Made by a program: the position numbers and the translations under genes. A stretch of DNA of 33,704 bases, from positions 1 to 33,704 of IMG/VR virus record IMGVR_UViG_3300025853_000335. One strand, written 5' to 3'. Shown piece by piece: positions 17,254-32,550 of this stretch; within the stretch, counting starts at the first letter, position 1; every line of letters begins with the position of its first letter. This DNA is from a virus. Under the pieces are notes generated by a model that saw only the letters and a program-made list of their open reading frames with translations, ran no database searches and was not told where the DNA came from.

Positions 17254-17492
17254 CACTTCTTCTCCCTGATAGGCACAGCCCTCAGCGTGTAGCCGAGGTA
17301 GTTCAGCGCTGCTTCCATGTCACTGATCCTGGGGGTGTGCGTCGTGCGCCACTTACGCAGTGTGTCGCGGTGCAGGCCAACCCGCTCTGACAGATCCATC
17401 TGACAGCAACGCTGCTTGTGCATCTCCTTGAACAGGAACTGAACAACCGGGTTGCCGTTGGCGATGGCGGGACGGTAACGAAACTTTCTCAT
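17253..17492 (-). CDS. small HTH DNA-binding protein
   Basis: The 79-residue protein has a Cro/XRE-like helix-turn-helix (CQMDLSERVGLHRDTLRKWR, then TTHTPRISDMEAALNYLGYT) in its central and C-terminal part. The N-terminus is basic (MRKFRYRPAI). Such proteins are usually phage repressors or transcription regulators. Its start overlaps the polymerase stop by four bases (ATGA), so it is translated from the replication transcript. It could provide feedback control of that unit, which is inference. Confidence 0.75.
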   Translation of the reverse strand: MRKFRYRPAIANGNPVVQFLFKEMHKQRCCQMDLSERVGLHRDTLRKWRTTHTPRISDMEAALNYLGYTLRAVPIREKK

Positions 17493-19402
17493 CCCACCTC
17501 ACCCCAGTTGTTGCCAAGCTCTGTATCCACATCGAAGGGAACCTTCAGCCCCTTCACACAAGTTGACATTATTTCACTGATCCGCGCTGCCTGTTCATCA
17601 GAGTTCACGTTAAAACACAATTCGTCATGCACCGTGAGGATTGGTGTGAATCCTTCTGAATAGCACACCGCCATCGCCTTCTTTGTCTGGTCGGCACTTG
17701 AACCTTGAATCAGCTTGTTCAGCGCCTTGTATGTGAATGCCGGCCTGATTGCCCCACGTCCGCCATATTCCTTGGCGGCTTCTTCGAGTGGCAGAGGCTT
17801 GTGGTAGCCGAACATCTTTGGCTCCCACATGTTGAACCGGCACTTTCGTCCCAGAGCGGTGCGGATAAACCCGTTCTTTTCTGCCTGACGCATGGCAAGG
17901 TCTGCCATGCCTTTCACGAATGGCACCTTGTCGTGGTACTTGCCCAGCAGTTCGGTCGCCTCGTCCACCTCGATGTCCATGACACCGGCCAGCTTCTTCT
18001 TGCCCATGCCGTACATGATACCCAAGTTCACGGTCTTTGCTTCTTTGCGACTGATTCCTGCTAGGTCTGCCACCTTCTGGTGGAAGTCGGCAGCGCCTTC
18101 GTGGTATTCTTGTACAACTTCTTCGATCATGGGGTGTGGGTTTTTTAGTGACGCACAGTAGTGGGCCAGCCACCGTGGCTCTTGAGATGCATAGTCAAAC
18201 GATCCCCACTTGTGCCCCTCCTCTGGTATGAAGAGTCCGCGAATCATCTTTTTTATTTCTGGATCTCGTGCCGGGATTTGCTGGAGATTCGGGTTGGACG
18301 AAGAAAATCGTCCGGTAACTGTGCCCCCTTCATCTGAACGAAGAGGGTGAAAATCACAATGGATACGCCCGTTATGAGAATGCTCGAGTATAGTTTCGAT
18401 AAATGTCGTGTTGGCTTTGTTAAACTCGCGAAGGCGTACGATCTTCTGTGCGACAGGGTGCTCGTGATTCGCAAGAAAAGCTTTTGTAAAAGCGGGCGCA
18501 TTAGACTTTTCTGTCCTTTCGTACGTGAGCCGAAGCGCGTCGAACGCCTTTGCTATCGATGTGGCAACCCAAGGCTCTACAAGGACGCCGGTCTCTTCCT
18601 TTATTTCTTTAAGTAAAACTGACTCTCTAGTCTTCAGTTCTTTTCGCACCTGCTCTGCTCGATCTACGTCAACACGGACACCAGTCTGTTTCATGTCTAG
18701 CAGCAGCGGGGTCAACGACGACTCTAGTTCAAAGATGCCTGTGCATTCATCGTCACGCAATTCCTGTTCCAAACGATCCCACAGTCGCAGAGTAACAGCA
18801 GCATCTTGCTCGGCATACGGGCCAACAAACTGACTGGGTAGTTGCCACATGCCAGACTTGGGATCTACACCGAACACATCCGCCGCCTGACGCAGCAGCT
18901 TTTCGTTTTTAAACTCACTGAGATAGTCACGAGCCAGGCTGTTCAGGTTGTAGTACCGACGGTTTTCGTCGAGCAGCGGCGCTGCAACCATCGTATCAAT
19001 CACCCGACCCTGTACTTCGATGCCCGCCCAGCGTAGCCAACCCAGATCGTACAGTGCGTTGTGCATAATCTTATCGATGTGCGGTGTAGCCAGTTGTTTC
19101 TTCAGCCAGTTGACTACCTTCTTCTCTGATATATTCCCGCCGCCTTCGTGACGCACGGGATAATACCCCACAAAATCCCCAGCGGCTACAGCGTAGCCAA
19201 TGACGTAACCATCATCTCGGCACCAACCCGGCCCAAGACGAGTAAGGTTTGGATCTCGAGTCTCAAGGTCGATGGCAATCCGATCAAACTGCGTTAGGTC
19301 AGGGAAGTTGGACGGTGGAGACCACGTTCCCTCAACCCCTGACGCCGCTACACGTTTCAGGTCTTCTGCGTCGAAGATGTCAAACTGATGTTTCTTTTTC
19401 AT
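17489..19402 (-). CDS. family A DNA polymerase with 3'-5' exonuclease
   Basis: The 637-residue replicative polymerase carries both domains. The exonuclease has motif I (IAIDLETRD, Asp45/Glu47), motif II (HNALYDLGW, Asn115/Asp119) and motif III (YAEQDAAVT, Tyr196/Asp200). The polymerase has motif A (FDYASQEPRWLAHY, Asp403, steric-gate-position Glu408, Arg410), motif B (RKEAKTVNLGIMYG, Lys456) and motif C (VHDEL, Asp593/Glu594). No 5'-3' exonuclease domain is present, as in other phage PolA. Leu460 is at the position of E. coli Phe762. I chose the ATG at 19402, which has GAGGAG upstream; an in-frame ATG at 19432 would add ten residues but has a poor ribosome site. Confidence 0.96.
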   Translation of the reverse strand: MKKKHQFDIFDAEDLKRVAASGVEGTWSPPSNFPDLTQFDRIAIDLETRDPNLTRLGPGWCRDDGYVIGYAVAAGDFVGYYPVRHEGGGNISEKKVVNWLKKQLATPHIDKIMHNALYDLGWLRWAGIEVQGRVIDTMVAAPLLDENRRYYNLNSLARDYLSEFKNEKLLRQAADVFGVDPKSGMWQLPSQFVGPYAEQDAAVTLRLWDRLEQELRDDECTGIFELESSLTPLLLDMKQTGVRVDVDRAEQVRKELKTRESVLLKEIKEETGVLVEPWVATSIAKAFDALRLTYERTEKSNAPAFTKAFLANHEHPVAQKIVRLREFNKANTTFIETILEHSHNGRIHCDFHPLRSDEGGTVTGRFSSSNPNLQQIPARDPEIKKMIRGLFIPEEGHKWGSFDYASQEPRWLAHYCASLKNPHPMIEEVVQEYHEGAADFHQKVADLAGISRKEAKTVNLGIMYGMGKKKLAGVMDIEVDEATELLGKYHDKVPFVKGMADLAMRQAEKNGFIRTALGRKCRFNMWEPKMFGYHKPLPLEEAAKEYGGRGAIRPAFTYKALNKLIQGSSADQTKKAMAVCYSEGFTPILTVHDELCFNVNSDEQAARISEIMSTCVKGLKVPFDVDTELGNNWGEVG

Positions 19403-19676
19403 CGTTAGAAATCTCTCCTCCCAGAGCGGCATAACCTATGATATCTACCCACGAATCGTCCTTGTGCATGTCCTCGGCAAGGCGGGCAAGCTTCAGGCCG
19501 ATCATCATCGCCGTCACTTCTGTCGGCGTGATCTTGTCCAGTAACTTGGAACGAAGCAGCACGTTCCAGATCGTAGCAATCCGCTCGTGGTTTACCAACG
19601 CTGGCCCGTAATCCTCGGCCCTCGGACCGTTGATTAGTTCCTCTGCTTCCCGCAAGAAGTGTTCTCTGTTCTTCAT
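19380..19676 (-). CDS. DUF6378-like phage protein
   Basis: The 98-residue protein matches the pattern I know for DUF6378: AEELINGPRAEDYGPALVNH, then ERIATIWNVLL, ITPTEVTAMMIGLKLARLAE and DDSWVDIIGYAALGG. This all-helical family is common in phage genomes and resembles MazG-like NTP pyrophosphohydrolases, though an activity is not established here. It sits between helicase and polymerase and overlaps the helicase stop (ATGA at 19673-19676). A role in nucleotide metabolism during replication is plausible. Confidence 0.82.
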   Translation of the reverse strand: MKNREHFLREAEELINGPRAEDYGPALVNHERIATIWNVLLRSKLLDKITPTEVTAMMIGLKLARLAEDMHKDDSWVDIIGYAALGGEISNDEKETSV

Positions 19677-21184
19677 ATTGCATACCTCACTTTGCCGGAT
19701 TCAACGACGTGCAGGTTCTGTCGGGCGCGAGTGGCGCCGACATAAAACACCCGCGCCTCATCGTCCGGGTCGTTCTTGTCACAGGTCTTTGTGGTTTCGG
19801 TCAGTAGTAAGACGTTATCCGCCTCGCCACCTTTTGCTTTGTGAATCGTCGATAGACGGATCCTCGGTTTCGCATCCCCCAGAATCTTCTCGCCACTCCT
19901 CCGAATAGAGGCTATGTACAGTGCCTCCTTCTCCGAGGCCCGAAGAACCTTGGTCCAGTGCATCTCGCGCGATACGAGCATGTTGCAGTTCTCGATAAGT
20001 TCGTCGAGAGAGTAGGCGATCTCGGGGTCTAAATTGTTGAAGCGTCTTTTCCCCTGGCGGTTGATAACTTCCTTCCTCAAGTACGAGCCAAAAGTCTTCA
20101 TCTCCAGTGGGGTAAATTTTTCGCCTCTGCATAATCGGATCCATACCTCCAGCGCGTTCAGTGTTTTCGGGGAGATGGACCAACCCGAACCCTCGCGCCA
20201 GAAGACGAAGCCCTGATCTTTAAGAGAGGCGGCGACTTTGTTGACGATGTGATTTGTACGGCCAAGGATAAGCCACTCACCAGTTCGTAGGTCCACGTTC
20301 ATAATATCATGATGGAACTTAACGGTGCCAGCGTGATCGTTCGGATCCCAGCTTTTATCTTGTCGCACTGCTACACGGCGGATGATGCTCTGAGCCACGT
20401 CGTAGATCGGCTTGGGTAGACGATACGATCTGTCCAGAACGGTGACGTTCTCAGATGCGTTCATGAAGTCCTTCACGTCCACACCCATCCACGAATAGAT
20501 GCACTGGTCATCGTCGCCCGCGTAATAGACGACCTTGGACCGTGGAACTAGAACCTCTCGAATCATGCGCCACTGCATTGGTGTCAGGTCTTGTGCCTCG
20601 TCCACAATCAGCAGGTCGAGGTTCGGGCCTTCGCCACCGAGGATGAACTGCTCGATCATATCGACGAAGTCCACCTTGTCGTGCACATCTTTGTATCGTG
20701 CCAGTGCATTCTCAACCAGCCGCAGTTGCTGCCGGCTCATGCTCCAGTGGGCAGATATGTCGAACTCCCGCTCGGCGGGGATCTCTGCCGCCCGCGCCTT
20801 GCTGATGATGTTGATGTACGCATCGCCGCCGACACCAGTAGCAAACATCGGACCGTCTTCCATCTTCAGCGCAGCGTGTGACCGGAACTCGAGTCCGAGC
20901 GCCTTGCCAAGATCGTTGTAGTCCGCGCCCTTCATCACGTCTGTTGTCGTCAGGCCAAGATACCGAAACGCCATCGAGTGCAGGGTGCGGAACCAGACAA
21001 GCTGCTTCTCGTCGTAGCCAAACTTTTCTTTTGCACGAGCCAGCGCCTCGTCTGCGGCCTTGCGACTAAACGAAACAAACGCAATGCGCGTCGGATCCAT
21101 GCCGCCTTGCAGCGCCTCGTCCACGATGTTGAGGAGGGTGGTTGTCTTGCCTGTGCCTGGTGGGCCAAAGATTGCCTTTTCCAT
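19673..21184 (-). CDS. UvrD/PcrA-like superfamily 1 helicase
   Basis: The 503-residue protein has the SF1 helicase motifs: Walker A GPPGTGKTTT (residues 7-16), motif Ia VSFSRKAADEA (37-47), Walker B LLIVDEAQD (191-199), motif III AGDDDQCIYSW (222-232), motif IV SYR (253-255), motif V RLSTIHKAKGGEADNVLLL and motif VI VFYVGATRARQNLHVV near the C-terminus. It should translocate on single-stranded DNA and unwind duplexes using ATP. At ~500 residues it is shorter than cellular UvrD, as usual for phage forms. The ATG at 21184 overlaps the primase stop (TGATG); a longer upstream open frame is rejected because Walker A would lie too far inside. Confidence 0.94.
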   Translation of the reverse strand: MEKAIFGPPGTGKTTTLLNIVDEALQGGMDPTRIAFVSFSRKAADEALARAKEKFGYDEKQLVWFRTLHSMAFRYLGLTTTDVMKGADYNDLGKALGLEFRSHAALKMEDGPMFATGVGGDAYINIISKARAAEIPAEREFDISAHWSMSRQQLRLVENALARYKDVHDKVDFVDMIEQFILGGEGPNLDLLIVDEAQDLTPMQWRMIREVLVPRSKVVYYAGDDDQCIYSWMGVDVKDFMNASENVTVLDRSYRLPKPIYDVAQSIIRRVAVRQDKSWDPNDHAGTVKFHHDIMNVDLRTGEWLILGRTNHIVNKVAASLKDQGFVFWREGSGWSISPKTLNALEVWIRLCRGEKFTPLEMKTFGSYLRKEVINRQGKRRFNNLDPEIAYSLDELIENCNMLVSREMHWTKVLRASEKEALYIASIRRSGEKILGDAKPRIRLSTIHKAKGGEADNVLLLTETTKTCDKNDPDDEARVFYVGATRARQNLHVVESGKVRYAI

Positions 21185-22713
21185 CAGAACGGAATGTCCT
21201 CCCCTTGTATGTCGATATCCGGAGCTTCGACCTCGGGACTGAATGCCGGGATGTGCCAAACACGAATCTTTTTCCACTGACCATCCGAACCCTTGAAGCT
21301 CTTCGCCCCAGATGCCTTCGCATCTGGATTCAGTTCCTTCAGACGCTCCTGAATCTGACCACGGCTGTAGGTGTCGAAGCGGTTGTTACGCAGGTACTTG
21401 ATCAGGGACTCGATACGGAAGTAGGTCAGCCCATCCTCGGTCCACGGCTTGCCCAGTGCTAGTTCCTCGGGACTCGCAGCTTGAACCCTGCCGGTACAGA
21501 ACTCTTCGAGGAAGTCCATGAACTGCCCCTTGTATGTCAGTTCCTCCGGCACCTCGATCTCGCTCATGTCGGACATCAGCATCGTGACCATAGCCTGCCA
21601 GTCGCCCAACTTCATTAGCGGAGGCATTTGATGGATCTGTTCCATACATGCCTTCTGGAACTTCTGTGGTGTCTGTAGCTCCTCGGTAATCAACTCCACG
21701 CGCTTGCCATCAACGTCGCAGAACCAGACAGGTGGCTCTGACTTGACGACGCACAGGCCCGTGATGTCGGCGGAGGCACTGCCACCACCGATTCCAAACT
21801 GCTTCGTTTTGCACAGGGTCTTGTTGCAGCGAGACTTGAACGGCTCCTGCTGGCAGGGGAAACCGTACTCTTTCTTCTCGTGTTGTGTCTGGATGATCAC
21901 CATCTCGGATGCAGGCAGTGGAGGCTGCACATGAGACATGTTGATCTCTTCGAGCCTGCCCTTCCAATTTTCTGGCTGCTCTTTCTTACACGCCACGCAC
22001 GTGCCGAACATTACGATGTTCCGTGTGCCCTCCGGTACGCCATCCGAGAACAGACTCTGCATACACGGTGGGTATTCCATAAACTCGTCGAGGCTGCGCC
22101 CAAGGGACAGTGTAACGAAAGCGTCTGGAGTACACCGTCGAGCTTCGACAAGCGCTAAGAACTCTTCGATCTCTGCTTCATCGCCATCTTCCTTAATGGC
22201 GTAACGCATCGTCTGTTCCGAATCAAAGTACGGAAGGTTGATAAAGTTACCAACATCACCACGCTCGACCAGAAGCTGCTCCTGCTTTGGGAACACTTCG
22301 CAGCCCCCGTAGCCAAGAAAGGCACTGATCTCACCCGCCTTGTCACGGAACTCACCAGCGCCAATTTCCTCTGTGAAAAAGAAGAAGATATGTGCGCCAC
22401 CTGATTTCGAACGGCAGACCACAGCCGGGATATCATTGTCTCGTAGCCTCTTGTCTATCGCCACAAGGTCGAGCGGGTACTGATCGATGTCGAGTGCACC
22501 AAAGGAACACTTGTTGTTTTCCTTAATCGGGATCGAGCCAACACCCTTGGCGCCGGCAAGATGCCCTTCAATAAGTTCAAGCGTGAGCGGCTGACGTACG
22601 ATAAAGGACTTGGCCTTCTGCTTACCGGCTCGACGTTCTTCTGATATTTGTGTCTGTCCATGTGCTGCGCTGAATCCTTCAAACGCAGCCATGAACCGTT
22701 GTGCTAGGTTCAT
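21184..22713 (-). CDS. archaeo-eukaryotic-type primase with SSB-like C-terminal tip
   Basis: The 509-residue protein carries AEP superfamily motifs: FGALDIDQYP with Asp75/Asp77 (motif I), CRSKSGGAHIFFFF with Ser104/His108 (motif II), then NFINLPYFD (~156-164). This is the type found in TOTE-like and phage primases. A cysteine cluster (YGFPCQQEPFKSRCNKTLC) may bind metal. The C-terminal third looks like a winged-helix region (YFRIESLIKYLRNN), and the chain ends DIQGEDIPF. It should make primers, possibly with polymerase activity. I chose the ATG at 22713; an ATG at 22725 and a TTG at 22755 are in frame but lack ribosome sites. Confidence 0.88.
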   Translation of the reverse strand: MNLAQRFMAAFEGFSAAHGQTQISEERRAGKQKAKSFIVRQPLTLELIEGHLAGAKGVGSIPIKENNKCSFGALDIDQYPLDLVAIDKRLRDNDIPAVVCRSKSGGAHIFFFFTEEIGAGEFRDKAGEISAFLGYGGCEVFPKQEQLLVERGDVGNFINLPYFDSEQTMRYAIKEDGDEAEIEEFLALVEARRCTPDAFVTLSLGRSLDEFMEYPPCMQSLFSDGVPEGTRNIVMFGTCVACKKEQPENWKGRLEEINMSHVQPPLPASEMVIIQTQHEKKEYGFPCQQEPFKSRCNKTLCKTKQFGIGGGSASADITGLCVVKSEPPVWFCDVDGKRVELITEELQTPQKFQKACMEQIHQMPPLMKLGDWQAMVTMLMSDMSEIEVPEELTYKGQFMDFLEEFCTGRVQAASPEELALGKPWTEDGLTYFRIESLIKYLRNNRFDTYSRGQIQERLKELNPDAKASGAKSFKGSDGQWKKIRVWHIPAFSPEVEAPDIDIQGEDIPF

Positions 22714-22714
22714 A

Positions 22715-22738
22715 CCTGCCCCCATAAAAAAAGGCAGG
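22715..22738 (-). promoter_or_regulatory. hairpin overlapping the primase ribosome site
   Basis: CCTGCC (22715-22720) and GGCAGG (22733-22738) are perfect inverted repeats around a 12-base A/T-rich loop. On the coding (minus) strand the 3' arm GGCAGG is the only Shine-Dalgarno-like sequence before the ATG at 22713. Folding would hide the ribosome site and could limit primase translation. The pairing is seen in the sequence; the control is inference. Confidence 0.4.
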
Positions 22739-22837
22739 GGGTGATTAACAGACAACTTTAACTGAGAAAGGTACCAGCCCGCCGGATCTGTTAATCTTGC
22801 CGCAGCCCCCTGTACTACGGATCAATCCCCGGCGGAA
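22739..22837 (-). other. non-coding gap between SSB-like and primase genes with inverted repeat
   Basis: With the hairpin above this is the longest gap within the replication unit (124 bases in all). CCGCCGG (22779-22785) and CCGGCGG (22829-22835) form a seven-base inverted repeat about 43 bases apart. The stem lies just after the SSB-like gene's stop, so it could be a weak attenuator or processing site. No T-run is present. I see no gene here. Confidence 0.3.
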
Positions 22838-23650
22838 TTAAAATGGGATATCGTCATCCGCGTTGCTGGATGCAGCGTTCGACTGCTTGTTCATTTCATC
22901 CTGTGTACCAGCTTGTGTCTTTACATCACCGGACCGGAAAGACTGGAAGAACGCCTTCGCAGCGTGAAACGCGGAACTTGGAACTTCGGTCGGCTCGACA
23001 CGAGACACGCCATAGTTGTACCACGTACCCTTGTCGTTGCTTTCCGAGATCACCGTCATCTTCCAGGCAGTGCCCCACATCGGTGGGTTGAACAGACCTT
23101 GTGGTCCTTCGTACTGCACCATACGCATCTGCGTATTCCAGCGACGAGACACCTTCAACTGTGTCTTCTTCATGTCACAGATCGCCTGCTGTGTATGACC
23201 CGTTTTAAGATCAACAAGCAACACAAGATGCTGTGCCGAACGGACAAGCTCATTACCCGACGGTAGTATTTCTGCCGCGCCATTGCGTGTGGTGTTCTTC
23301 ACGTCCGGTGAATTAGGATCCAACTCACCGTGGAAACCTCCACCAGCCTCACGCAATCCGAACTCGAGGTACTTAACGGTGTACCCACACGGAATAACTA
23401 CTACGCCTTCCTCGCCGTCCCAGACCTGCTGAGTAACGGTGTTGAACAGGTCACCTGCGGATGCGCCCTTAATGAACTTGGCGTCACCCTTCTGCACTTC
23501 TGGCGACAGAGGCTGGAGAATCCGCAAGAACGGAATCTGCATATCCTCTGTACCAATTGAATCCATGCCCTCGCCTGCAAACTCTGCCATGTCAGCAAAG
23601 ATTGTGGACGGTGCGGTTTCTTTCTTATCTGCTACTGCTGTACCAGCCAT
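22838..23650 (-). CDS. SSB-like protein with acidic DDDIPF tail
   Basis: The 270-residue protein ends NADDDIPF. This reproduces the C-terminal tip by which bacterial SSB recruits its partners (E. coli SSB also ends DDDIPF). The tail is preceded by a polar, disordered-looking linker (TQAGTQDEMNKQSNAASS). The main body is beta-containing, with aromatic and basic residues (VVVIPCGYTVKYLEFGL, CDMKKTQLKVSRRWNTQMRM) that could hold single-stranded DNA. I infer a phage SSB or recombination mediator from the tail and the primase/helicase neighbours; I cannot place the fold with certainty. The start is the MAGTAVADKK ATG preceded by GGGGAAC. Confidence 0.75.
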   Translation of the reverse strand: MAGTAVADKKETAPSTIFADMAEFAGEGMDSIGTEDMQIPFLRILQPLSPEVQKGDAKFIKGASAGDLFNTVTQQVWDGEEGVVVIPCGYTVKYLEFGLREAGGGFHGELDPNSPDVKNTTRNGAAEILPSGNELVRSAQHLVLLVDLKTGHTQQAICDMKKTQLKVSRRWNTQMRMVQYEGPQGLFNPPMWGTAWKMTVISESNDKGTWYNYGVSRVEPTEVPSSAFHAAKAFFQSFRSGDVKTQAGTQDEMNKQSNAASSNADDDIPF

Positions 23651-24248: not shown

Positions 24249-24818
24249 CTAGCTCCTTGAAATCTTGGCTTCTGTGCCAACAAAAACCCCAAACGTGTCG
24301 AAGTCCAACTCTTTGCCGGCTTCGATTCTGTTCTTGACCCACGCCTTCAGGGTGGACGGATGTACGTGAGTCTTTTGTGATGGATCAAGACCGTACTGTT
24401 GCCGGAGGTCTTCGACCACCGAGCCAGCCATGTTGTCTTGTCCTGCTGAGAACGAGATCGTCACATCATTCTTGATGATGTCACCCTCGCCAATGGATCG
24501 CAGATAACCGAACGCTTCATTGCGCTTGTCCTCTGTAATCCGCGCGTGAACGAACTGCCGCAGAGTAACCTTGTTACCATCCACGGTGACGCTGTCCATG
24601 CCCATCTCTTCCATGAGCATTGGAATATCTTCTTCGTTGATCTTGCGCTTTTTAAATTTCAGATCTTTCAGAAACTGTTCTGCATCTGCGATCTGCTTAT
24701 CAATCTCGAGGGATCGACGGATCAGATTGGAAAGGTCGCTTGCGCCTTCCTTCTGCACGTTGTCAAACTTGTCGGCGTTGACTGCCTCTTCTTCAAATAG
24801 CGAGAACACATCGCTCAT
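24249..24818 (-). CDS. conserved-looking phage replication-unit protein, unknown
   Basis: The 189-residue acidic protein begins MSDVFSLFEEEAVNADKF. Residues about 25-65 form a charged coiled-coil-like helix (LIRRSLEIDKQIADAEQFLK, then DLKFKKRKINEEDIPML). A compact segment follows (MGMDSVTVDGNKVTLRQFVH) and the C-terminus has THVHPSTLKAWVKNRIEAGK. The pattern resembles single-copy proteins near phage replication genes, but I cannot name a family. Start is the ATG after AAGGAGAGAGTG; the GTG directly before it is in frame. Confidence 0.7.
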   Translation of the reverse strand: MSDVFSLFEEEAVNADKFDNVQKEGASDLSNLIRRSLEIDKQIADAEQFLKDLKFKKRKINEEDIPMLMEEMGMDSVTVDGNKVTLRQFVHARITEDKRNEAFGYLRSIGEGDIIKNDVTISFSAGQDNMAGSVVEDLRQQYGLDPSQKTHVHPSTLKAWVKNRIEAGKELDFDTFGVFVGTEAKISRS

Positions 24819-24928
24819 CACTCTCTCCTTCTGGTAAAAAGTTTAACCCCTTCGGGTGGTGGTGCAGCCCTGCCCACGGAGGTAAGCGCGGGCTGCGGCC
24901 AGTGTGATACACCGGCAAACTTTTATGG
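24819..24928 (-). other. 110-base gap with inverted repeats
   Basis: GCAGCCC (24864-24870) and GGGCTGC (24890-24896) can pair around a 19-base loop. Nearer the downstream gene, ACCC/GGGT forms a small hairpin, followed on the minus strand by a short T-run (TAAACTTTTT). This could be a leaky terminator after the ribbon-helix-helix gene. No gene is seen. Confidence 0.3.
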
Positions 24929-25144: not shown

Positions 25145-25693
25145 ATGGGAATAGATCATAGAATCCGTGACGGCGCTCAATGTGAGCTTATTGCCGCCGC
25201 GTGGTTGGTACAACAAGGGTGCTATGTCTACCAACCGGTCATGTCTCAGGGTCCAATAGACCTGATTGCTCTTGCGCCCGACGGCAAACTGCACCTGTTC
25301 GATGTCAAAAAAGCAGCGCAAAGAGAAAACGGATCTTACATATCTCGAAAACTTAAACCCAAGCAAAGAAAGATGGGCGTACGTCTTCTGTATGTGGAAC
25401 CCGGGACGGGGAGATGTGCTTTGTACCCTCATCAGCTTTACTCTTCTTTAACAGTTCAACATCAGGCCATCATCGAAAAGGCTTCTAATCGTCATTGGCA
25501 CGGGGGGAGAGTTCCAACCATCTCCGGACTTCTTCACCCAGAGCAGCAGCCGACAGTTCAATCTTCTTCTGAAGCGTCTTCACAATGTGAACATCCACAG
25601 TCTGCGGAGCCATCAGATCAACGTATAGAACAGGATGATGCTGACCAATCCGATGCGCTCGATCCTCTGACTGCACCCTACTCTCGAGATTAA
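25145..25693 (+). CDS. PD-(D/E)XK endonuclease with antisense-overlapping C-terminus
   Basis: The 182-residue product has a nuclease core in its first ~110 residues: GAQCELIAAAWLVQQGCYVY (Glu14), QGPIDLIALAPDG (Asp39), LHLFDVKKA (Asp53-x-Lys55), then KPKQRKMGVRLLYVE. This fits the PDDEXK family PF11645 and resolvase-like nucleases, with Asp in place of the usual Glu before Lys. Residues ~114-182 are low-complexity (EQQPTVQSSSEASSQ...) and lie antisense to the 3' end of the 25485-26942 helicase, so this tail may be a by-product of read-through. It is the only plus-strand gene in the 17-31 kb block. The ribosome site is weak (GGAG, 11 bases). Confidence 0.8.
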   Translation: MGIDHRIRDGAQCELIAAAWLVQQGCYVYQPVMSQGPIDLIALAPDGKLHLFDVKKAAQRENGSYISRKLKPKQRKMGVRLLYVEPGTGRCALYPHQLYSSLTVQHQAIIEKASNRHWHGGRVPTISGLLHPEQQPTVQSSSEASSQCEHPQSAEPSDQRIEQDDADQSDALDPLTAPYSRD

Positions 25694-26942
25694 AGTCGTT
25701 TGCATAGTAAACCACGTTCGTTGCAGCATGCAGTGTCAGACCCATGCCAGCGGTCTGCGGGTTGCCAACAAAGAACCGAACATCACCTGTCTGGAATTGT
25801 TTCTTTGCCTCCTCGCGCTGGTCACTGGTCGTGTCGCCGAAGTATGTGACTGTGCTTTCTGGTCCATACTTTTTCTTTAGCTCTGCTTCAATCTTGCGGA
25901 TGTCGTAGCGGAACCTGGACCAGATAATAACCTTACCAGTCATCTCTTCAATACAGTCCAGCAGCGCCGTAATCCTGTTGCTGGGAATCTCGACCAGTTC
26001 GCCGTCGTCTGTTACCAGATGCCCGCACAGTAGCTGTTGCAGCCTGATCAACTGCGTCATAGCAGCGGGCGCCGAAACCAACTCACCACTTTCAAGTATC
26101 GCAATCGCAGCCTTCTTGAGCGAGTGGTAGTGCTCGATCTGCTGCTTGGTCAGTGACACATTGCGTGTGGTGTAGACTTTATCCGGAAGATCCAGCGCCT
26201 CGTCTTTCGTTACGCGATACGAAAACGTCAGCAGCTTGTTTGATAACTCTTCCAGATTCCGATAGCCCACCACCTGATTGAAACTGTGCGACCCCATCCG
26301 CTGCGTTCGCGTGATCGCATACCTACCTTGAAAAGAATAGAACGAATCGAACCCGAGCAGCCGCTTGTCCATGAATCCACATTGTGCATACAAATCCAAA
26401 GGTGACTTGGTTACCGGTGATCCCGTCAGGATCCTTTTATATGCAGCCTTTGCACCGAAGATGACCAGCGTCTTAGTGCGTTTGGCTTTGGGGTTCTTGA
26501 TTGTAGTGGACTCATCAACAGCAAGTAAGAACGTGCTGCCTTGTGTGAACTTATCCACAAAAGCTGGCAGCTTCTTAGTCGCAAACCCTTCCACGTTTGC
26601 CAGAAGGATGCGGAAGACACCACGCTCTTTAACACCGGCTGCAAGACGTTCTGCCTGTGACTTGTTGGGACTCGGATTCCATACATAAACCTCGTGCGGA
26701 ACGGCTTCGGGGAAATGGGTGGGAATCTCCGCCGTTTCCCAGTTGCGATAAACACCCTTCGGCGCAACAATAACCGCCGTGTCAATACAGCCCTGCTCGT
26801 AGAGCCACACCATGTTGTCAATAAGTACCTTCGACTTGCCACATCCCATCTCCATAAAGTAAGCGTAGTTGCGTTTGTCGTAGCTTCGAACCAGCGCTTC
26901 ATGCTGGTGAGCATACGGCTCCGTCCTATAGTTAAACTTCAT
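25485..26942 (-). CDS. SNF2-like superfamily 2 helicase/translocase
   Basis: The 485-residue protein has SF2 motifs in order: YAHQHEALVRSY (Q-like, ~10-21), Walker A MEMGCGKSK (30-38), motif Ia VIVAPKGVYRNWE, Walker B LLAVDESTTIKN (DEST, 143-146), motif III ILTGSP (171-176), then NPQTAGMGLTLHAAT (motif V) and QSEDRAHRIGQ (motif VI, 424-434). This set is typical of SNF2-type ATPases, frequent in phages and thought to move on duplex or branched DNA during replication or recombination. The ATG at 26942 follows repeated CCGAGGA and lies 11 bases inside the upstream gene. The 3' end is antisense to the 25145 nuclease for 209 bases. Confidence 0.92.
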   Translation of the reverse strand: MKFNYRTEPYAHQHEALVRSYDKRNYAYFMEMGCGKSKVLIDNMVWLYEQGCIDTAVIVAPKGVYRNWETAEIPTHFPEAVPHEVYVWNPSPNKSQAERLAAGVKERGVFRILLANVEGFATKKLPAFVDKFTQGSTFLLAVDESTTIKNPKAKRTKTLVIFGAKAAYKRILTGSPVTKSPLDLYAQCGFMDKRLLGFDSFYSFQGRYAITRTQRMGSHSFNQVVGYRNLEELSNKLLTFSYRVTKDEALDLPDKVYTTRNVSLTKQQIEHYHSLKKAAIAILESGELVSAPAAMTQLIRLQQLLCGHLVTDDGELVEIPSNRITALLDCIEEMTGKVIIWSRFRYDIRKIEAELKKKYGPESTVTYFGDTTSDQREEAKKQFQTGDVRFFVGNPQTAGMGLTLHAATNVVYYANDFNLESRVQSEDRAHRIGQHHPVLYVDLMAPQTVDVHIVKTLQKKIELSAAALGEEVRRWLELSPRANDD

Positions 26943-31334: not shown

Positions 31335-31460
31335 TTAGAAGTCTCCTCTCGTTGATGTCTAGGAATGTTCCCACAACATCCCAGCTATGTAAACAGAAAA
31401 AACGGTTATATACAGTTTCCCCCATATTTTTTTGTTTTTGTTTTTTATTTTGTAAAAGTG

Positions 31461-31548
31461 GCGTAACGAGCGTAACGGCGTAACGAGTGCTCTGTAACCG
31501 TTGGTCAGCAACAATGTGTTCGTTACACCCTCGTTACGTTGGTTACAC
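31461..31548. repeat. GTAAC/GTTAC repeat cluster
   Basis: Three direct copies of CGTAAC start at 31462, 31471 and 31479, two of them extended to GCGTAACGAG. A fourth site reads TGTAACCG at 31493-31500. Three inverted copies follow: CGTTACAC at 31521, CTCGTTACG at 31530 and GGTTACAC at 31541. The inverted CTCGTTACG exactly complements the direct CGTAACGAG. Such ordered sites usually bind a repressor or an initiator protein. Confidence 0.7.
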
Positions 31549-31607
31549 GGAGTCAGACCCTCCAGCCATATTTTAGTAAATAGTCTTTTAAAAAATATGA
31601 CAGAAAC

Positions 31608-31613
31608 TATAAT
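31608..31613 (+). promoter_or_regulatory. TATAAT -10 box directly before the small terminase start
   Basis: A perfect TATAAT lies seven bases before the ATG at 31620, and no Shine-Dalgarno sequence is present. Transcription would start at or next to the A of the ATG, giving a leaderless mRNA. The -35 region is poor (TTTTAA at 31586-31591), so the promoter may need an activator or a phage factor. Confidence 0.35.
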
Positions 31614-31619
31614 GGCAGA

Positions 31620-32177
31620 ATGGAAAAGCAAAAACGATCTGCCGGTAGACCCGCTGGTTTGAATAATCGCCAGCGAGAATTTGCCCGCTATATTGTCGAG
31701 GGTGTTTATTCCAACGCGGAATGCGCTCGTAAGGCTGGCTATGCAGAAGGTCAGGCGGCGAAGACGGCTAGCCTGTTCTTGAATGGCCGAGATTATCCAC
31801 ATGTTGTCGAATTGATAAAAGATTTGCGCGAAGAAAAAGAACGCCGGTACGGCGTCACGCTTCTTGGCCAATTGAAACGGCTGGACGAACTGTCCCGCAG
31901 TGCTGAAGAATCCGGACAATTCTCTGCGGCGATCAACGCAGAGAAGATCAGGTCTGCGCTTGGCGGTCTGACCATCGACAGGCGCGAACAGAACCACACT
32001 CACCAGCTTGATAAACTGTCCCGCGAAGAGATAGCGGCGCGTCTTGCTGAGATTAGAAAAAGCCACCCTGCGGCCTTCATAGAAGGCGAAGTGATCGAAC
32101 ATGCCCCAGCCGGAACAAAATCTCTGGAAGTCATTCAAGCAGCACCTGCCGAGGAAATCCCACTGGAATCGAGTTGA
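31620..32177 (+). CDS. terS: terminase small subunit
   Basis: The 185-residue protein has the Terminase_2-type N-terminal HTH: GRPAGLNNRQREFARYIVEG, then VYSNAECARKAGYAEGQAAK. A helical region follows (LIKDLREEKERRYGVTLLGQ) and a polar C-terminus. The small subunit recognises phage DNA and delivers it to the large subunit for packaging. No large-subunit ATPase is in the window. The start lacks a ribosome site but has TATAAT just upstream. The last 77 bases overlap the next gene in another frame. Confidence 0.85.
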   Translation: MEKQKRSAGRPAGLNNRQREFARYIVEGVYSNAECARKAGYAEGQAAKTASLFLNGRDYPHVVELIKDLREEKERRYGVTLLGQLKRLDELSRSAEESGQFSAAINAEKIRSALGGLTIDRREQNHTHQLDKLSREEIAARLAEIRKSHPAAFIEGEVIEHAPAGTKSLEVIQAAPAEEIPLESS

Positions 32178-32550
32178 AAACCGCACAGGCACTGGCATGC
32201 CAGACGTGTATTTGGTCATCGATGGTGTGCCGTGCTGGCTTGAACTCAAGGTCATAAAGAAAAACCGTGTCCGGATTGCCGAGTCGCAAATTGCTTGGCA
32301 CCTGTCGCACACTAGATGCGGCGGGGCGTCGTTTTTCCTGCTGCGAGAAGAGGGGGCAAAGACTGCGCTCCTGTACCGCTCTGCGGACTGCCTTGCGCTC
32401 TGCGGCCCGCGTGACAAATGGCCGGAACCTGTCTGCGCGTCCGCGCTTTCAGACATATCTGCGGCCTTGCGATCTGATGCGGTTGAAATTTTGGGCATGA
32501 AAAAAACGCGACGTCCCAAGGGAACGCCGCCGCCTGTTAATGAGTTTTAA
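32101..32550 (+). CDS. VRR-NUC/Hjc-like PD-(D/E)XK nuclease
   Basis: The 149-residue protein has a clear nuclease core: NLWKSFKQHLPRKSHWNRVE (Glu26), NRTGTGMPDVYLVIDG (Pro34-Asp35), CWLELKVIKK (Glu48-x-Lys50) and ESQIAWHLSHT (Gln63). Spacing matches phage VRR-NUC/resolvase-like enzymes that cut branched or flap DNA. Family conservation begins at the first residues, so the ATG at 32101 inside terS is probably right. That gives a genuine 77-base overlap. Position next to terS suggests processing of DNA for packaging. The C-terminal 60 residues are variable and basic. Confidence 0.85.
   Translation: MPQPEQNLWKSFKQHLPRKSHWNRVENRTGTGMPDVYLVIDGVPCWLELKVIKKNRVRIAESQIAWHLSHTRCGGASFFLLREEGAKTALLYRSADCLALCGPRDKWPEPVCASALSDISAALRSDAVEILGMKKTRRPKGTPPPVNEF

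Follow-up and report, generated by a model that had tools for sequence, protein, structure and literature searches.

The window analysed here, 33,704 nucleotides long, is a 33.7 kb virus record from a marine phage (IMGVR_UViG_3300025853_000335), and encodes two neighbouring replication proteins that end in a C-terminal tip of the same type. One is a 270-residue protein of the Pam3 gp34 family, hereafter the gp34-like protein or gp34 (22838-23650, minus strand, ATG at 23650), and the other is a 509-residue archaeo-eukaryotic primase (AEP) of the AEP-TOTE type (21184-22713, minus strand). Judged from the sequences of related phages, the two tips are likely to vary together, and we hold it slightly more probable than an even chance that both dock on one shared, most likely phage-encoded replication protein.

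Tips of the gp34-like protein and the primase

Translation gives ...ASSNADDDIPF as the C-terminus of the gp34-like protein and ...DIDIQGEDIPF as that of the primase, bearing out an earlier note on this DNA that had read the ends DDDIPF and GEDIPF on neighbouring proteins. The tip codons lie at 22841-22858 (minus strand; assigned by translation and conservation) and 21187-21204 (minus strand; assigned by translation and the disorder of the tail in the structural model), respectively. The former end fits the acidic tip pattern of single-stranded DNA (ssDNA)-binding proteins (SSBs), [DE][DE][IL]PF, and among the open reading frames (ORFs) of the window such an end is limited to these two proteins. 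Outside both families, ends of the form [DE]x?[ILV]PF were found in only 7 of 28,303 ORFs from 365 related loci; small phage SSBs account for four of these and a gp34 fragment for one, and the remaining two are other ORFs. At so low a background rate, the tips are not a product of chance.

A check for close relatives lacking the tip covered about 118 relatives per protein, taken from viral contigs, down to approximately 45-55% identity. All of the gp34 relatives retain the terminal Phe, nearly all within [DE][IVL]PF, and all of the primase relatives but one, which ends in PL, retain PF, mostly as EVPF or DIPF; the linkers in front of the tips have diverged in both proteins. Wider searches yielded 253 gp34/primase pairs, or 137 after removal of near-duplicates, in which Phe is the last residue of 100 gp34-like proteins and of 109 primases. 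With these 137 pairs aligned from the C-terminus, the information content of the last position is 2.6 bits in gp34 and 2.9 bits in the primase, and that of the penultimate position 1.9 and 2.0 bits, compared with roughly 0.3-1.1 bits at the linker positions.

Matching changes of the two tips

Several distant lineages carry altered tips on both proteins. The HTVC027P-like Pelagibacter phages show DIV on gp34 and NIV on the primase in 30 of 32 pairs (IV/IV in all 32), and other SAR11-type phages have PY on both proteins. ct3Et533 ends in PFA and PFV (DIPFA/PPPFV), and a group of Acinetobacter and Klebsiella types carries E-plus-hydrophobic ends. An EL/DL pair, and EM or EL facing EF or DL, are also seen in relatives. 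Where both proteins end in P[FY], the combinations are FF (64), YY (5), YF (2) and FY (0).

To quantify the resemblance, one pair per 60% primase cluster was taken (36 clusters), and the last four residues were scored with BLOSUM62. The within-phage similarity of the tips is 5.3 versus 2.1 after shuffling (P about 0.0025), and no within-phage signal was observed in the same test for the control segments -8..-5, -14..-11 and -24..-21. When a tip is exchanged for that of a relative, the match drops by 8.5 at 25-35% identity, by 4.8 at 35-45% and by 1.2 at 45-60%. Both the shuffle and the swap test leave shared ancestry partly in.

Identity of the two proteins

The gp34-like protein matches PF23977 (Pam3_Gp34) with 222 bits against a curated cut-off of 27 (E=1e-65; profile positions 2-235 of 235) and phrog_2402 with E=2e-67. 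It has no other Pfam match, and no match to the bacterial SSB family PF00436 was found in the window. An AlphaFold2 model built from 98 relatives has a predicted local distance difference test score (pLDDT) of 90.6 and a predicted TM-score (pTM) of 0.82. The order of its elements, with strands at 83-97, 134-146 and 153-161, a helix at 162-177, and strands at 195-204 and 209-218, is the order of the oligonucleotide-binding (OB) fold, i.e. three strands, helix, two strands, and the tail from about residue 241 is modelled with low confidence. Viral matches include phage proteins named SSB (E=1e-3 and 1e-2), and the gp34 sequence profile had no match among PDB sequences. The OB-like core of the model, followed by an acidic flexible tail, suggests that the gp34-like protein is probably a phage ssDNA-binding protein. 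The label 'SSB-like' in the earlier note was a guess, as this is no known SSB and the families matched, PF23977 and phrog_2402, have no assigned function, although the predicted topology is of the OB-fold type.

PF23977/phrog_2402 is present in 505 phage records, mostly of Pseudomonas phages. Pam3 gp34 and its neighbour gp33 (PF23984/phrog_2378) belong to the same families and stand in the same gene order as their counterparts in the window; neither carries a function in the libraries, and the ssDNA-binding role of gp34, and with it a putative function for PF23977/phrog_2402, is proposed in the present analysis.

The neighbouring enzyme is an archaeo-eukaryotic (AEP-TOTE) primase with a Prim-Pol fold. 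It matches PF22548 (AEP-TOTE) with 60 bits against a curated cut-off of 27 (E=3e-16) and phrog_21866, annotated 'primase', with E=2e-82. Its AlphaFold2 model (pLDDT 88.8) has the CRISPR-associated Prim-Pol (CAPP) 7nqd as its best PDB match (E=7e-12). Motif I, the DxD of D75 and D77, and motif II, SGGxH with S104-G106 and H108, are invariant in 72 relatives. The last 20 residues, 490-509, are of low confidence and without secondary structure.

Proteins of AEP-TOTE type, 776-911 residues long and ending in DEDIPF or DEDLPF, are also encoded in Mesorhizobium and Rhodospirillaceae-type genomes (L407:8911-11241, L420:8968-11703 and L421:2219-4954), where gp34 was not found nearby. We considered the DIPF/DLPF end of these bacterial-genome proteins as a conserved trait and rejected it, for it is sporadic, and their relatives mostly lack it.

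Proposed docking on a shared partner and its alternatives

We propose that both tips, borne on flexible tails, would fit pockets of one type on a shared, most likely phage-encoded replication protein. In this scheme, gp34 would recruit the receptor to coated ssDNA, the primase would recruit it to newly made primers, and the tips, by competing, would let priming pass over into synthesis, an idea modelled on the gp5-contacting tails of T7. A change of the receptor pocket in one lineage would then draw both tips along.

One alternative is that both ends imitate that of host SSB and thereby draw PriA, RecO, RecG, chi and other host partners to the phage ssDNA and the primase. In its favour, DDDIPF is the very end of Escherichia coli SSB (...DFDDDIPF; PMC10164576), and mimicry of the host tip does occur in the group, since small SSBs of related enteric and Vibrio phages end in DFDDDIPF. 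The conservation, however, lies mainly in the last four to five residues and not in the longer DFDDDIPF, and the tips of relatives depart from those of their hosts. In the genomes searched for SSB, which contain contigs of related phages or elements and include SAR11 single-cell genomes, all 20 of the host SSBs recovered end in [DE][DE]IPF. The SSBs of the SAR11 single cells end in DD[DE]IPF, whereas the phage tips there are PY on both proteins. Phage tips in the genomes searched read KQPY/EAPY (L385), EAPY/ETPY (L399), EAPY/EDPY (L392) and AMPY/NEPY (L394). A phage contig in a metagenome-assembled genome may be a binning error, and the phage-host link is better for the single-cell genomes. 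The PY, IV and EM/EL tips found beside IPF-ending host SSBs weaken host-SSB mimicry as a general explanation.

Loci with a separate small SSB point in the same direction. Such a protein (phrog_18154/7364), mostly ending in DFDDDIPF as E. coli SSB does or close to it, is encoded in ten loci of Acinetobacter, Klebsiella/Salmonella and Vibrio types (L350, L352, L353, L355, L357, L359, L362, L363, L365 and L366); none of the small SSBs tested has a Pfam match. In nine of the ten, gp34 lacks the PF end and has EM, DM, TM, EL or EY instead, so a different protein can carry the host-type tip, with gp34 retaining an acidic-hydrophobic end. Of the two docking readings offered in the earlier note, the recruitment of host SSB partners is thus weakened as a general explanation, and one shared partner, probably phage-encoded, fits better in view of the non-host tips (PY/PY, DIV/NIV, EM/EL) and the loss of PF from gp34 beside a small SSB. 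Taken as a whole, we consider docking on host partners unlikely. It remains a serious rival in the window's own clade, where the tip equals that of host SSB and may also bind the host's SSB partners.

A second serious alternative, to which we give equally little probability, is that gp34 itself receives the primase tip: the gp34 tail would fold onto its own ssDNA groove, and the primase tail would imitate it to reach coated DNA. SSB tails are able to contact their own OB domain (PMC10164576), the acidic motifs of PrimPol bind the basic cleft of RPA70N (PMC5457501), and matching tips on adjacent gp34 and primase would follow. Nevertheless, gp34 keeps its tip where the primase has lost it, and its end is still acidic-hydrophobic in phages with another enzyme as primase, both of which argue for another role of the gp34 tip.

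Several observations weigh against docking on a common phage receptor. With relatives of 60-85% identity, a phage's own tip fits no better than the exchanged one. In Pan1, R26L and HTVC023P (L122, L123 and L361), gp34 keeps EVPF or SVPF beside a primase without the tip, and several other pairs disagree, with Y on gp34 and F on the primase, or M with F. Foldseek of the gp34-like model against the PDB returned nothing significant, SSB, PriB and MCM chains being mixed with other folds among weak top matches of low TM-score, and binding of ssDNA by gp34 is itself something that we infer. Gene co-occurrence in 83 long related loci singles out no receptor, as SNF2 (83/83), UvrD (83/83), PolA (82/83) and gp33 (77/83) are nearly all present. 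Finally, on the primase tree, 5 of 21 changes of gp34 end class share their branch with a change in the primase, versus 2.5 expected, which is borderline (P=0.07). All five go in the same direction, and for the class 'ends PF' the tree-aware co-change gives P=0.045.

This borderline co-change would also be compatible with ends that are alike by composition or through separate histories and play no part in docking, serving for instance to protect a flexible C-terminus. We regard such an explanation as very improbable, given the strong conservation of the last residues beside a free-running linker, the very low background of such ends and the origin of gp34 and the primase in different families.

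As for the receptor of the preferred reading, a shared phage replication protein, the SNF2-like helicase, gp33, the UvrD-like helicase and the family A polymerase are candidates, the last by analogy with T7. SNF2 and gp33 alone accompany gp34 in PB1-like and Vibrio phages without this primase, which is a weak pointer to one of them. We also note that the gp33-like protein lies immediately upstream of gp34 in nearly all of the phages seen, PB1-like and Vibrio phages included, and it is a promising candidate for interaction with gp34.

A further, more speculative extension, which we put forward as possible yet rather doubtful, is a private tip code. A phage hub would read one signature on gp34 and the primase, and this signature would drift jointly away from the host SSB tip (PF, PY, IV, E-hydrophobic), separating the replisome from host SSB partners, while tip competition would hand the primer from primase to polymerase.

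Comparison with known systems

The closest precedent is phage T7, in which the SSB (gp2.5) and the primase-helicase (gp4) likewise share a tip on an acidic tail with a family A polymerase nearby, and the tails of gp4 bind to basic patches of gp5 (PMC12593628, PMC8472574). The T7 SSB ends in GDF and the primase-helicase in TDF; the corresponding ends are YDF/DDF in Syn5 and DDF/TDF in P-SSP7, and HTVC011P has -DF on the SSB only, so that -DF is found on four of four SSBs and three of four primases of the T7 type checked. The earlier note called a primase with such a tip unusual, which holds for the DIPF form but not for a shared C-terminal tip as such. However, gp2.5 and gp4 are unrelated to the PF23977 and PF22548 proteins of the window, the AEP primase is separate from a helicase, and the tip is of the bacterial SSB type (DIPF) and varies with lineage, unlike -DF.

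Bacterial SSB, whose last six residues in E. coli are DDDIPF, resembles gp34 in carrying an acidic flexible tail after its core. It differs in that gp34 is not a PF00436 protein, the phage has the tip on two proteins, one of them a primase, and relatives show PY, IV, EM and EL. Human PrimPol, similar to the window's primase, is an archaeo-eukaryotic primase-polymerase with acidic-hydrophobic motifs in a flexible C-terminal region, and these motifs serve recruitment through the ssDNA coat (PMC5457501). They are helical segments that bind replication protein A (RPA), whereas the phage primase has its motif at the extreme C-terminus, in common with a coat-like protein.

In the literature searched, we found no description of a shared C-terminal docking tip on these proteins. 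The design is known, and its occurrence on an AEP primase and a PF23977 protein, as read from their sequences, appears to be new. This suggests at least two origins, on unrelated proteins, of a tip common to an ssDNA coat protein and a primase (the T7 type, and the AEP primase with PF23977), and tip sharing would then be a general way of keeping priming and coating in step. The natural variants PF, PY, DIV, EM and EL can serve as existing mutants in the search for the receptor and in asking whether phage and host SSB networks are insulated from each other, and Pan1, R26L and HTVC023P are useful natural controls.

Neighbouring genes

The replication module lies on the minus strand and comprises the SNF2-like helicase, the gp33-like protein, the gp34-like protein, the primase, the UvrD-like helicase and the family A polymerase. 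The candidate receptors are the SNF2-like superfamily 2 helicase (485 residues; 25485-26942, PF00176, E=7e-17), the gp33-like protein (24249-24821, PF23984/phrog_2378, E=1e-28), the UvrD/Rep-like helicase (503 residues; 19673-21184, PF00580, E=5e-26), whose ATG overlaps the primase stop codon, and the family A DNA polymerase with its 3'-5' exonuclease domain (647 residues; 17489-19432, PF00476, E=2e-60, and PF01612), all on the minus strand.

Elsewhere in the window, a 386-residue ORF (31359-32519, minus strand) has no Pfam or PHROG match. Within the minus-strand replication region, a 182-residue ORF on the plus strand (25145-25693) resembles, by eye, a small nuclease of the PD-(D/E)XK type.

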